Assembly: GCA_903831545.1 (NCBI GenBank)
Contig: CAIKYI010000347.1
Span: 1 to 10,377 of the forward strand
Direction of reading: 5' to 3'
Source: an uncultured Methylobacter sp.
Lineage (GTDB): Bacteria; Pseudomonadota; Gammaproteobacteria; Methylococcales; Methylomonadaceae
Length of the DNA stretch: 10,377 nt
The notes under the pieces are model-generated. The model was not told the origin of the DNA. It saw only the letters and a program-made list of their open reading frames with translations, and made no database searches. Shown here in pieces: positions 3,911 to 7,057 of this stretch (position 1 is its first letter; the number at the start of each line of letters is the position of its first letter). The translations under genes and the position numbers were made by a program.

Positions 3911-3914
3911 GGAG
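3911..3914 (+). promoter_or_regulatory. Shine-Dalgarno that fixes the GTG start of the ABC gene
   Basis: GGAG lies 6 nt before the GTG at 3921. This supports the unusual GTG codon as the true start, ahead of a protein that begins MEFSNGFFIQF, as is usual for the N-terminal segment of this family. Confidence 0.7.
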
Positions 3915-3920
3915 TTTCCT

Positions 3921-5612
3921 GTGGAATTTTCAAACGGATTTTTTATTCAGTTTATTCGGTTAGCGGGACCTTTTTGGGATTCTGAAAACAAGTCTACTAT
4001 TCGTAGTCTGGCCCTGGCTTTATTCATGTTGACCGTAATACAAATCGGCATTGCCGTTATCATAACAGTGTGGAGTGCCGATCTTTTTAATGCACTTGAA
4101 CAGCGCTCAATGAGCGGGCTGTTTATGCAGATAGTTGCAATCGTTATGATTTTCCTGGCAAATATAGCTGTTACAACGGCCCATTTTAAGGTTAAGCGGC
4201 GTTTGCAACTCGATTGGCGCAGTTGGCTAACCCAACATTTGATTAGTTTATGGATGACTGACGGTCGCCATTATCTGGTCACCCATATTCAGGGAACTCA
4301 CGATAATCCTGATGGACGTATTGCAGAGGATATTCGTATTGCGACCGAATCGGCTATCGAACTTTGCCATTCTCTAATGTACTGCCTGTTGGTGATTATT
4401 AGTTTTTCCAAGATACTTTGGACACTTTCCGGAACTGTTATGCTGGATCTCTGGTTCTTTGAAATTCCCGTATATGGGCATTTGGTCTGGCTGGCTATCA
4501 TCTATTCAGCGTGCGCATCATCATTGGGTTGGTGGTTAGGTCGCCCCTATACTTTGGCAACTGATGCCCGGCAAACTGTGGAAGCCAACTTCAGGTTTGG
4601 TCTTGTAACTGCACGCGAAAACTCCCTGGCGATTGCGCTGGTTCATGGTGAAGCCAATGAACAGACCCGTTTTGTCGCGCTTTTTAATGATATCGTTCAT
4701 GCCTGGCAACGCCAAACCCATACCTGGTCGCATTTGTTTATGCTGACTTCCGGCTACTCGGTATTGTCAATGGCGTTTCCCATTCTGGTGTCTGCGCCTC
4801 GTTATATTTTGGGAAATATCACCTTGGGTGCATTGATGCAATCAGCACAGGCATTTCAGCAAACCGCAGGAGCTCTGTCCTGGCCAGTAGACAACATGGC
4901 CAGAGTCGCAGAATGGCGCGCTTCGGTTGAGCGGGTATTGGGATTAGCCAATGGTTTGGATAAGTTAGAGCAGGAAATTATCCGTCATGATCCGCATCGA
5001 ATTCATCTGAAAAAAACAGAGCGGGATGTATTGGGTATTTCCAATCTGTGCATTATCAGGCTAGACGGCGTGGTGTGTTTATCGGCAATCAATGAAGAAA
5101 TTAAACCCGGGGAGCATGTGCTGGTTACAGGTAATGCTTTTACCGGTTCCAAATTATTTAAGGCGATAGTTGGTCTCTGGCCTTGGGGAGAAGGAACTAT
5201 TGAGTTGCCCAAAGACTTTGTATTTTTTATGCCGCCAAGACCTTATCTACCAACAGGTTCTTTACGGGCTGCAATTTGTTATCCGTCAACCCAGATAGCC
5301 TATTCCGAGTCTGAGTTGGGTGACACACTTGAATTGGTAGGTTTGGAGGAATTACAGGAGCAACTGGATCGTGAAGATAATTGGGCCACTGCACTTTCGC
5401 GCGAACAACAACAGCGTTTGGGTGTGGTCAGATTATTGCTTCAGCAACCCAAGTGGATTTTGCTGCAGGAGGCGATGGATTCTCTTGATTCCTCATGTGA
5501 ATTGAAAATGCTGCGTTTGATAGCCAAAAAACTGCCTGATGCCGCAATCATGACGATTACCAATGAACCTTTGGCCGAAGCTTTTCATCAGCGTCGAATT
5601 CTGCTGCAATAG
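3921..5612 (+). CDS. SbmA/YddA-type ABC membrane protein with degenerate ATPase domain
   Basis: Inner-membrane protein of 563 residues, the usual length of YddA-like fusions of an SbmA/BacA-type membrane domain (ABC_membrane_2) with a nucleotide-binding domain. The membrane domain (about 1-340) has helices near 30-50, 66-86, 150-170, 186-205 and 272-292. It keeps family motifs: LQLDWRSWLT (95-104), DNPDGRIAED (128-137), and VEANFRFGLV plus ARENSLAIAL (220-240). The nucleotide-binding domain (about 370-563) aligns throughout, with GLWPWGEGTI (418-427), RPYLPTGSLR (440-449) and RLLLQQPKWILL (504-515). Every catalytic motif is changed: Walker A GNAFTGSK (404-411) has Ser-Lys where Lys-Ser/Thr belongs; Q-loop Gln is Pro439; the signature LSxGE is LSREQ (Gly to Glu495); Walker B Asp is Gln516, though Glu517 remains; the switch His is Asn548. 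I infer no normal ATPase activity. The GTG start has a good Shine-Dalgarno. The GH5 gene follows 22 nt after the stop. The substrate is unknown. Confidence 0.88.
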   Translation: MEFSNGFFIQFIRLAGPFWDSENKSTIRSLALALFMLTVIQIGIAVIITVWSADLFNALEQRSMSGLFMQIVAIVMIFLANIAVTTAHFKVKRRLQLDWRSWLTQHLISLWMTDGRHYLVTHIQGTHDNPDGRIAEDIRIATESAIELCHSLMYCLLVIISFSKILWTLSGTVMLDLWFFEIPVYGHLVWLAIIYSACASSLGWWLGRPYTLATDARQTVEANFRFGLVTARENSLAIALVHGEANEQTRFVALFNDIVHAWQRQTHTWSHLFMLTSGYSVLSMAFPILVSAPRYILGNITLGALMQSAQAFQQTAGALSWPVDNMARVAEWRASVERVLGLANGLDKLEQEIIRHDPHRIHLKKTERDVLGISNLCIIRLDGVVCLSAINEEIKPGEHVLVTGNAFTGSKLFKAIVGLWPWGEGTIELPKDFVFFMPPRPYLPTGSLRAAICYPSTQIAYSESELGDTLELVGLEELQEQLDREDNWATALSREQQQRLGVVRLLLQQPKWILLQEAMDSLDSSCELKMLRLIAKKLPDAAIMTITNEPLAEAFHQRRILLQ

Positions 5613-5634: not shown

Positions 5635-6765
5635 ATGACTGACAATATGAAGCATGATTTTGATCATAACGATGTTAAAAAAATACGTGGCGTTAATCTG
5701 GGCGGCTGGCTGGTTCTTGAAAAATGGATGACGCCCAGCGTTTTTGAAGGACTGGAAGCGGTTGACGAAACCAGCTTTTGTGTGGAACTGGGCGCAAGAG
5801 CCGGGCAAGTCCTTAAACAACACTGGGATACTTTCATTACCCGCGAAGATTTTGTCTGGTTGACCAATGTCGGTATCAATGCAGTTCGCATACCGGTAGG
5901 TCACTGGATATTCGGTTCCGATTATCCTTATCACGTCAGTTATGGCCAATATGCTCATCCTTATGTCGAGGGCGGTCTAGCGGTTTTGGATCGCGCTTTT
6001 GACTGGGCAGACGAATTGGGTTTGCATGTCGTGCTGGATTTACACGCCGCGCCCGGTTGTCAAAACGGTTTTGATAATGGCGGTATCAAGGATGTTTGTC
6101 AGTGGCACACTAAAACCGAATATATTGATTATTCGTTAGGCGTTCTGGAACGTCTTGCCGAACGTTATCACGTTCGACCTGCCTTGCATGGTATCGAAGT
6201 ACTGAATGAACCACACTGGGATATTGGTACGGATATTCTAAAAAAATATAACACAGCTGCTTATCATCGAATTCGTAAATACTGTAATGCCAAAGCTGTT
6301 GCCGTGGTTTTTCATGACGGCTTCCGATCCTTTCGGGAATATACCGGGTTTTTAACTGAACCAGAGTTTAATAATGTGGTGTTGGATATCCATCGCTATC
6401 AGTGTTTTATGCGCGAAGACATAGATACGGATATTTATGGTCACCTGCAAAAAGCTATCCTTGAATGGAAACATGAAGCCGATAATATTAACACTGAACT
6501 TGGTTGCGCTTATGTTGGCGAATGGAGTTTGGGTCTTGATTTAAGGGTTGTTTCACTGTGGGCGGAAGGGCCGTTTAATCATGCCTTGCAAAAGATGGAC
6601 GACTTCCAGCTGGATGCTGCCTATCGTGGTTACGCAGCCGCTCAATTGCTTGCTTTTGAAAAATATCCTGGCTGGTTTTTTTGGAGCTATAAGACTGAAA
6701 CAACGCCAGCCTGGTGTTTTCGGGATTGCGTTGCAAGGGGCTGGCTTCCTGATAACTTTTCTTGA
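5635..6765 (+). CDS. Glycoside hydrolase family 5, exo-beta-1,3-glucanase-like, cytoplasmic
   Basis: Retaining glycosidase with a GH5 TIM barrel, most like the exo-beta-1,3-glucanase subfamily (GH5_9, fungal Exg1 type). The 376-residue product has the N-terminal family stretch RGVNLGGWLVLEKWM (18-32), NAVRIPVGHW (82-91), DLHAAPGCQNGFDNGG (135-150), the acid/base Glu192 in VLNEPHWD (189-196), DIHRYQCF (251-258) and the nucleophile Glu296 in YVGEWSLG (293-300). WFFWSYKTE (347-355) is the late aromatic barrel strand. All catalytic positions look intact. There is no signal peptide or membrane helix, so the enzyme is probably cytoplasmic, unlike the secreted fungal members. ATG 5635 is 22 nt after the ABC stop, so the two are probably co-transcribed. 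Shine-Dalgarno pairing is poor; ATG 5647 is an equally possible start and would lose only four residues. The likely substrate is a beta-1,3-glucan oligosaccharide or a glucosylated molecule, but subfamily specificity cannot be fixed by eye. Confidence 0.88.
   Translation: MTDNMKHDFDHNDVKKIRGVNLGGWLVLEKWMTPSVFEGLEAVDETSFCVELGARAGQVLKQHWDTFITREDFVWLTNVGINAVRIPVGHWIFGSDYPYHVSYGQYAHPYVEGGLAVLDRAFDWADELGLHVVLDLHAAPGCQNGFDNGGIKDVCQWHTKTEYIDYSLGVLERLAERYHVRPALHGIEVLNEPHWDIGTDILKKYNTAAYHRIRKYCNAKAVAVVFHDGFRSFREYTGFLTEPEFNNVVLDIHRYQCFMREDIDTDIYGHLQKAILEWKHEADNINTELGCAYVGEWSLGLDLRVVSLWAEGPFNHALQKMDDFQLDAAYRGYAAAQLLAFEKYPGWFFWSYKTETTPAWCFRDCVARGWLPDNFS
6344..6360 (+). repeat. 17-bp direct repeat, copy 1 (inside GH5 gene)
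   Basis: CCGGGTTTTTAACTGAA occurs here, coding part of TGFLTEPEF in the GH5 protein, and again at 6785-6801 just past the gene. After one mismatch, CAG follows in both copies. Confidence 0.55.
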
Positions 6766-6808: not shown

Positions 6809-7045
6809 CTAAGTTAGTTGAAGCAAACCCAATAGGGCAATTAAAGACCAAACAATGTTCAGCCAAAATAGGGGGTTGGTTTTATTGTGTCTGGCGTTGA
6901 TAACCATACATAAAGCACCGGCCAGGTTGGTCAGGTGATATAAAGCGGAATTTATATCAAGCAGTTTTATCGTAACAAAAAAATACGCACTAACGATGAG
7001 AATAAAGCCAAGCCAGCCAATTTGTTCAAAATGTTTATCTGTCAT
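6809..7045 (-). CDS. Small CBU_0592-type membrane protein
   Basis: A 78-residue integral membrane protein with three predicted helices at about 9-28, 36-52 and 58-76. It resembles the small family often annotated as CBU_0592-like: a G(W/x)LGF...AYF first helix, a conserved Tyr-His (36-37, ALYHLTNLAGAL), and a third helix with N-x-x-W-S-L-I-A (63-70). The function of the family is unknown to me. I chose ATG 7045 over the in-frame GTG at 7054 because AAGGTG (7057-7052) lies 6 nt before it, a proper Shine-Dalgarno that would be consumed by the longer start. It is transcribed alone, convergent with the GH5 gene (43 bp between stops) and divergent from the chemoreceptor gene. Confidence 0.78.
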   Translation of the reverse strand: MTDKHFEQIGWLGFILIVSAYFFVTIKLLDINSALYHLTNLAGALCMVINARHNKTNPLFWLNIVWSLIALLGLLQLT

Positions 7046-7051
7046 TATCAA

Positions 7052-7057
7052 CACCTT
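7052..7057 (-). promoter_or_regulatory. Shine-Dalgarno that decides the start of the CBU_0592-type gene
   Basis: On the minus strand AAGGTG is followed by 6 nt and then ATG at 7045. The position favours the ATG over the upstream in-frame GTG at 7054, which lies inside this site. Confidence 0.55.

Follow-up and report, generated by a model that had tools for sequence, protein, structure and literature searches.

A conserved clade of YddA/BclA-type transporters in methane-eating bacteria and some distant relatives retains a dead ABC ATPase domain

The ABC half-transporter encoded in the 10,377-nucleotide stretch of DNA analyzed here (the window) carries a nucleotide-binding domain (NBD) with a dead ATPase, and this loss is real, shared, and maintained. 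It recurs throughout a clade of such transporters from methane-eating bacteria and some distant relatives; the window copy is not a lone decayed one. We regard the protein as very probably a pseudo-ATPase. With a probability of about 0.6, we read the clade as a conserved derivative of the YddA/BclA transporters that gave up ATP, acts as a homodimer driven by an ion or substrate gradient, and imports a β-glucoside that is cut by a GH5 enzyme; within this explanation, we infer that the protein is a homodimer and works without ATP in the cell, and likewise its coupling to ions, the direction of transport, and the substrate. Searches of an open-licence library turned up no description of this clade.

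The transporter gene occupies positions 3921..5612 (+) and has a GTG start and, as the first-pass annotation of this DNA had it, an open frame of 563 codons free of internal stops. A GGAG, the likely ribosome-binding site, ends six bases 5′ of the start codon (3911..3914, +). Pfam searches placed a membrane domain at residues 25–334 (3993..4922, +; PF06472, 3.6e-34; PF05992, 3.4e-18), fused to a degenerate NBD at about residues 364–563 (5010..5609, +; Pfam and AlphaFold2 model) on which PF00005 (ABC_tran) scored 24.7 bits over residues 388–518, 0.3 below the cut-off of 25. This joining of PF06472 to an NBD is the YddA/BclA architecture, and the protein has the same domain order and fold as YddA, BclA, and Rv1819c (PF06472 + PF00005), with loop lengths in its clade equal to those of canonical relatives. 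Rv1819c was the top PDB match both by sequence (6tqe, 5.1e-61, residues 60–560) and by fold (TM 0.87). The source metagenome-assembled genome (MAG; 3.64 Mb, 805 contigs, 72.7% complete) has Methylobacter as its closest named relatives. By Pfam, the other genes around the transporter in the window are MMPL, ApbE, GH5, and MCP, with no ATPase among them, and an Rfam scan of the window gave no matches. An 81-aa ORF at 6809–7054 (−) had no Pfam match, and its homologs lie near the transporter in a few other Methylobacter-type loci.

Measured against YddA/BclA, none of the Walker A, Q-loop, signature, Walker B, and H-loop motifs is intact in the window protein. The former Walker A, GNAFTGSK (404–411; 5130..5153, +), is short by one residue, and Pro439 (5235..5237, +) stands in place of the Q-loop Gln. 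The former signature reads LSREQQQR (492–499; 5394..5417, +) with Glu495 in place of Gly, the former Walker B reads WILLQE (512–517; 5454..5471, +) with Gln516 in place of Asp, and Asn548 (5562..5564, +) replaces the switch His. Every residue sits at the number that the first-pass annotation had given. That annotation called the Walker A Lys replaced; it is indeed gone, by what the alignment shows to be a one-residue P-loop deletion, so that Lys411 stands opposite the canonical Thr/Ser. The annotation's further claim that every motif was lost holds for the five residues it named but not for Glu517 (the catalytic Glu position), Asp523 (the D-loop), and Leu492-Ser493, all of which are still present.

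We collected homologs from named genomes (80 loci kept from 116 confirmed) and from further genomes and aligned 193 sequences, after duplicate removal, with two E. coli references. The alignment comprised 111 rows of the window's group, labeled by the gapped Walker A Lys position (“A_del”); 53 canonical rows, defined by Walker A Lys plus Ser/Thr and Walker B Asp plus Glu; 15 rows belonging to a second degenerate type; 15 more that largely or wholly lack an NBD; and L168, an odd row on its own. E. coli YddA (canonical rows) and SbmA (NBD-poor rows) were each counted twice, and two of the 111 clade rows are partial (L002, L202). Because the labels were set by Walker residues, counts at the Q-loop, signature, and H-loop are independent tests. 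The one-residue gap that removes the Lys, which also defines the clade label, was found in 111/111 NBD-bearing clade rows; Lys, Q-loop Gln, and Walker B Asp were jointly lost in 108 of them, and all five residues named in the first-pass annotation in 73. The H-loop His is still present in 35/111 rows and the D-loop Asp in most. Named hosts include Methylobacter, Methylomonas, Methylovulum, Methylomicrobium, and Crenothrix and also Candidatus Thiosymbion, Desulfoprunum, Desulfobulbus, and a Nitrosomonas MAG. The altered positions are, hence, common to close orthologs and to a large clade, a recurrence that goes beyond chance.

In the alignment, the lost motif residues were mostly swapped for new fixed ones rather than eroded. 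Among the 111 clade rows, position 411 is Lys or Arg in 110, and Pro439 (105 rows), Gln516 (104), and Glu517 (92) are similarly prevalent. A comparison of 42 core clade rows with 43 canonical rows gave Pro439 (Gln in canonical rows), Glu495 (Gly), Gln516 (Asp), and Asp520 (Ser) as sites that are conserved but different; positions 439 and 495 are the cleaner cases of replacement, because the canonical group was defined by Walker residues. Mean conservation within the clade was 0.78 for motif columns vs. 0.67 for the remaining NBD. Three basal rows (L130, L135, and L144) retain the Q-loop Gln, and L130 also retains the Walker B Asp and Glu. Since these rows share the P-loop gap with all others, the alignment indicates that the gap came first or early, with the Q-loop and Walker B changes later; the switch His appears to have been lost in parallel. 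Pfam did not report an NBD at all in L102 and L144, and routine annotation would, therefore, label such members only as SbmA/BacA-like.

Two further sets of degenerate sequences were observed. Six sequences (L190, L191, L193, L194, L195, and L204) form a paralogous group at 52–55% identity with a Walker A that is degraded further (such as SDQANNG), and no GH5 gene was found near them in the sequence stretches examined. The 15 rows of the second degenerate type (L131, L213–L216, and L223–L232; in genomes of group f4 from the same order) form an independent degenerate-NBD clade in the same family, in which Walker A (such as GPNDPAKLALLR) retains its Lys, the Q-loop Gln is changed to Glu, the catalytic Glu is mostly Arg (FLDRxxTAL), and the switch His is gone. 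Members of this second clade occur in several copies per genome and, in genome G057, beside a canonical copy.

Some relatives have no NBD. Of the 15 rows with little or no NBD, six belong to the clade, seven lie outside it (E. coli SbmA twice, four rows branching with SbmA, and L138), and two are cut, L094 by a contig end and L217 by the edge of its stretch. At least five genomes (G659, G727, G741, G745, and G793) carry an NBD-less gene besides a full-length copy, and in these genes the match ends at query residue 351–352, with a stop soon after. The sixth NBD-less member, L137, comes from a genome (G194) that has no other PF06472 match. A search of the six NBD-less stretches for NBD sequence found it only within the separate full-length copy of L185, a locus where the NBD-less copy, the full-length dead-NBD copy, and a GH5 gene lie consecutively on one strand (L185:3474-7698). 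A terminator after the NBD-less genes, seen by eye, was discarded after a scan of one such gene found none.

We built a careful tree from 44 chosen rows, including four of the six NBD-less members. The dead-NBD clade took up 34 of the 44 rows with support of 100/99, and two NBD losses were needed over the 5–95% range of 200 bootstrap trees. On a larger tree with long branches (seven rows left out and the rest thinned to 115), three NBD-less representatives fell inside the 50-row clade (SH-aLRT 99). The four closest NBD-less members showed dN/dS of 0.022–0.027 (6 pairs), and the NBD-less members retain the long cytoplasmic loops (45–46 and 50 columns). On these alignments and trees, it looks like the NBD was dropped at least twice within the clade, along a second, independent SbmA-like path. 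The clade also has specific membrane residues (His88, Lys92, Arg93, His150, Gln265, Gln310, Gln313, and Pro322), which are present in the basal L130, L135, and L144 and in the six NBD-less members, four of which have Tyr at 150. Their presence in the basal rows indicates that changes in the membrane domain accompanied that in the P-loop. The first-pass suggestion of an intermediate form between ABC and SbmA-like transporters, thus, gains support from the NBD-less relatives nested inside the clade.

Selection on both domains is purifying in the Methylobacter-type sequences. Among 20 of them (161/190 pairs usable), median dN/dS, obtained by a basic counting method (dS close to 1), was 0.060 for the membrane domain and 0.103 for the NBD (NBD range 0.038–0.268), below 1 as proposed for a maintained protein. 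Constraint is strongest in the membrane domain. Compared at matching membrane-domain distances, the NBD rate ratio was 1.08–1.63 over bins in the clade vs. 0.84–1.22 in canonical relatives; this faster rate argues for constraint that is strong yet partly relaxed. The NBD/membrane ratio in nine Desulfobulbus-type sequences was 0.98. Together, the shared altered positions, the low dN/dS, and the NBD-less relatives within the clade bear out the maintained pseudo-ATPase that the first-pass annotation had put forward.

An AlphaFold2 model of the window protein reached a mean pLDDT of 89.3 with a well-folded NBD. In this model, only GN of the P-loop remains as loop, and a helix at 406–416 runs through AFTGSK, whereas in the canonical control model (one relative) the five residues ASGSG form a loop and the helix begins at the Walker A Lys. 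The NBD is, thus, predicted to fold with a collapsed P-loop. Pro322 (4884..4886, +), which is found in 111/111 clade rows and 0/53 canonical rows, adjoins the SbmA Tyr368 gate position. We rejected Pro322 as the cause of a new break in TM6, because the canonical control model breaks at the same place and the break is, therefore, not special to the window protein.

SbmA/BacA (SLiPT) proteins, which are proton-driven peptide transporters, have a membrane domain related to that of the window protein (PF05992), and neither has a working ATPase. The NBD, however, is retained here and missing from the six relatives described above; the TM0 region of SbmA/BacA is absent from the window protein in the alignment; the cytoplasmic coupling loops measure 45–48 and 50 in the clade vs. 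35–36 and 42 in five SbmA-type proteins; and SbmA/BacA sit on a branch separate from the clade (115-row tree). The SbmA glutamate ladder is reported to comprise residues 193, 203, 269, 276, 287, and 378 (PMC13316013). Three of these Glu are absent from the clade; in their place stand Ile, Val, or Leu at 203, Thr at 269 (109/111 rows), and mostly Arg at 287 (95/111). Position 378 is Glu in 75/111 rows, and positions 193 and 276 are Glu in the clade but commonly so in canonical relatives too. We, therefore, rejected the SbmA ladder as the proton path, its remaining Glu not being clade-specific; if protons drive transport, their path differs. An acidic residue at SbmA position 200 was likewise dismissed as a clade-specific feature, since 25/53 canonical rows also have one. 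His150 (4368..4370, +), four residues after the Glu203 position, and an acidic residue at 143, three before it, are proton-path candidates only, picked out from the alignment. Canonical BclA is reported to require ATP hydrolysis (PMC12003926), and work on MsbA-MD indicates that an ABC exporter membrane domain can couple to protons without its NBD (PMC4979069). We lean toward ATP-independent secondary transport for the window protein, and we name protons as the coupling ion tentatively, at somewhat worse than even odds.

Directly downstream, 22 bases past the transporter stop, lies a gene for a GH5 exo-β-1,3-glucanase-like protein (5635..6765, +) that the first-pass annotation did not mention. 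Its product matches the PF00150 fold and has both catalytic Glu, and its best PDB matches are exo-β-1,3-glucanases (8z2w, 4.7e-62; 1eqp, 1e-53). The catalytic Glu are found in 54/55 and 52/55 rows of GH5 homologs, with gaps in the remainder, and from sequence, the enzyme probably cuts sugar chains. It differs from known exo-β-1,3-glucanases in traveling with a transporter and in that no signal peptide was seen by eye in seven N-termini. A GH5 homolog is directly downstream on the same strand in 54 of the 80 loci from named genomes, with an estimated gap of ≤31 bases in 46 of these 54; the other 26 have no adjoining GH5, six of them offering fewer than 900 bases in which it could lie. Methylobacter tundripaludum SV96 (L033), for one, carries the transporter with no GH5 over 5 kb downstream, and a further ortholog of the transporter is that of Methylomonas sp. 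LW13 (L065). Nine Desulfobulbus-type loci have a GH5 that is 63–68% identical to that of the window and a transporter that is 53–55% identical. Across 61 related genomes, GH5 occurred in 17/31 with the transporter (14/31 lacked it) vs. 0/30 without (Fisher p 7e-7, relatedness of the genomes ignored), and in 15 of the 17 it is adjacent to the transporter by coordinates. Among 274 genomes of the class, a sample that holds few transporter-bearing genomes, GH5 was found only in that of the window. None was found around canonical, second-type, or basal members in the sequence stretches examined, flanks being short in stretches from genomes outside the named set. GH5 was rejected as the reason for NBD retention, as the NBD/membrane distance ratio in Methylobacter-type sequences was 1.59 with and 1.70 without it. 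The association suggests that transporter and GH5 form a unit in which an imported β-glucoside or β-1,3-gluco-oligosaccharide is cut inside the cell, although a β-glucoside is, taken by itself, a doubtful assignment of the substrate.

The mechanism that we propose begins with the one-residue P-loop deletion common to the whole clade, by which Walker A lost its Lys. Four more motif residues would also have gone and mostly given way to fixed ones: the signature Gly, Q-loop Gln, and Walker B Asp, with the switch His disappearing in parallel. The protein most likely acts as a homodimer whose dead NBD stays folded in the cytoplasm, where it would serve as a clamp or as a scaffold for regulation. 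The membrane domain would work by alternating access, like SbmA, powered by an ion gradient (perhaps protons) or a substrate gradient, and would perhaps import a β-glucoside or β-1,3-gluco-oligosaccharide for GH5 to cut in the cytoplasm. Several observations weigh against this explanation: the missing SbmA-specific Glu, the persistence of Glu517, most D-loop Asp, and 35/111 H-loop His, the loci and transporter-bearing genomes that have no GH5, the faster NBD relative to canonical proteins, and the ATP requirement of canonical BclA.

It is improbable that a partner, either the live half of a heterodimer or an independent ATPase subunit from another locus, still powers transport with ATP. There is well-established precedent in heterodimeric ABC exporters in which one site is degenerate (PMC7756269) and which likewise have an NBD with altered catalytic motifs; the window's genome has at least 30 ABC_tran matches elsewhere, and the membrane domain keeps full-length coupling loops. 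In the window protein, however, the P-loop itself is lost, and no canonical partner gene of the same family turned up in 19 of 20 same-genus genomes. A PF06472 search of the 61 genomes, 23 of them of the same genus (that of the window included), found the family in 20 of the 23 and a single gene in 19 of these 20, 11 of the 19 genomes being at least 99% complete. In the remaining one, the window's own, contig C440 (3,039 bases) bears part of a second copy (L002, L203), which is probably contamination or a strain mix, because it matches the G017 copy with 100% identity over 439 aa. A live partner of the same family is, therefore, unlikely, and we rejected such a partner, which the first-pass annotation had raised as an active half-transporter; the genome's other ABC_tran matches may include an unrelated ATPase subunit acting in trans. 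The NBD-less relatives, with the lone PF06472 match in G194, and the lack of an ATPase among the window's neighbors also speak against an ATP-driven partner.

A role as a regulator, sensor, or channel instead of a transporter, with nucleotide or some other ligand still bound where the motifs were altered and a signal passed, for example, to GH5 or the membrane, is slightly less improbable but still unlikely. The new residues fixed at positions 411, 439, 516, and 517 and the constraint on the NBD would suit such a role, but it is the membrane domain that is most constrained and that persists without the NBD. A decaying pseudogene could account for the relaxation of the NBD relative to the membrane domain beyond that of canonical relatives, but dN/dS far under 1 among the 20 sequences, together with open frames, largely refutes decay, and the same losses are found in different phyla; we give it hardly any weight. 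Our preferred reading remains a clade that gave up ATP for gradient-driven import.

A wider reading, which we hold tentatively and at a little under even odds, is that, in this clade, an ABC transporter turned into a secondary transporter for a second, independent time and that members at each stage survive today, with new membrane residues replacing the ladder and β-glucoside uptake served by a dedicated intracellular GH5. The stages would be canonical; P-loop deleted with other motifs present; all motifs replaced with the domain kept; and the domain discarded, at least twice. Judged from the alignment, His150, Gln265, Gln310, Gln313, and Pro322 would stand in for the glutamate ladder of SbmA. 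A study from 2026 concludes by inference that loss of the ATPase domain from a YddA-type ABC transporter gave rise to the proton-driven, SbmA-like transporters; it names split or separated NBD genes, and the word “degenerate” is absent from its main text (PMC13316013). On its separate branch, the clade contributes intermediate forms in which the motifs go by degrees before the whole domain is lost, and the order of events and an ATP-free drive of an ABC membrane domain, therefore, become testable in culturable methanotrophs. A substrate class is also indicated, because an uncommon GH5 travels with the transporter.
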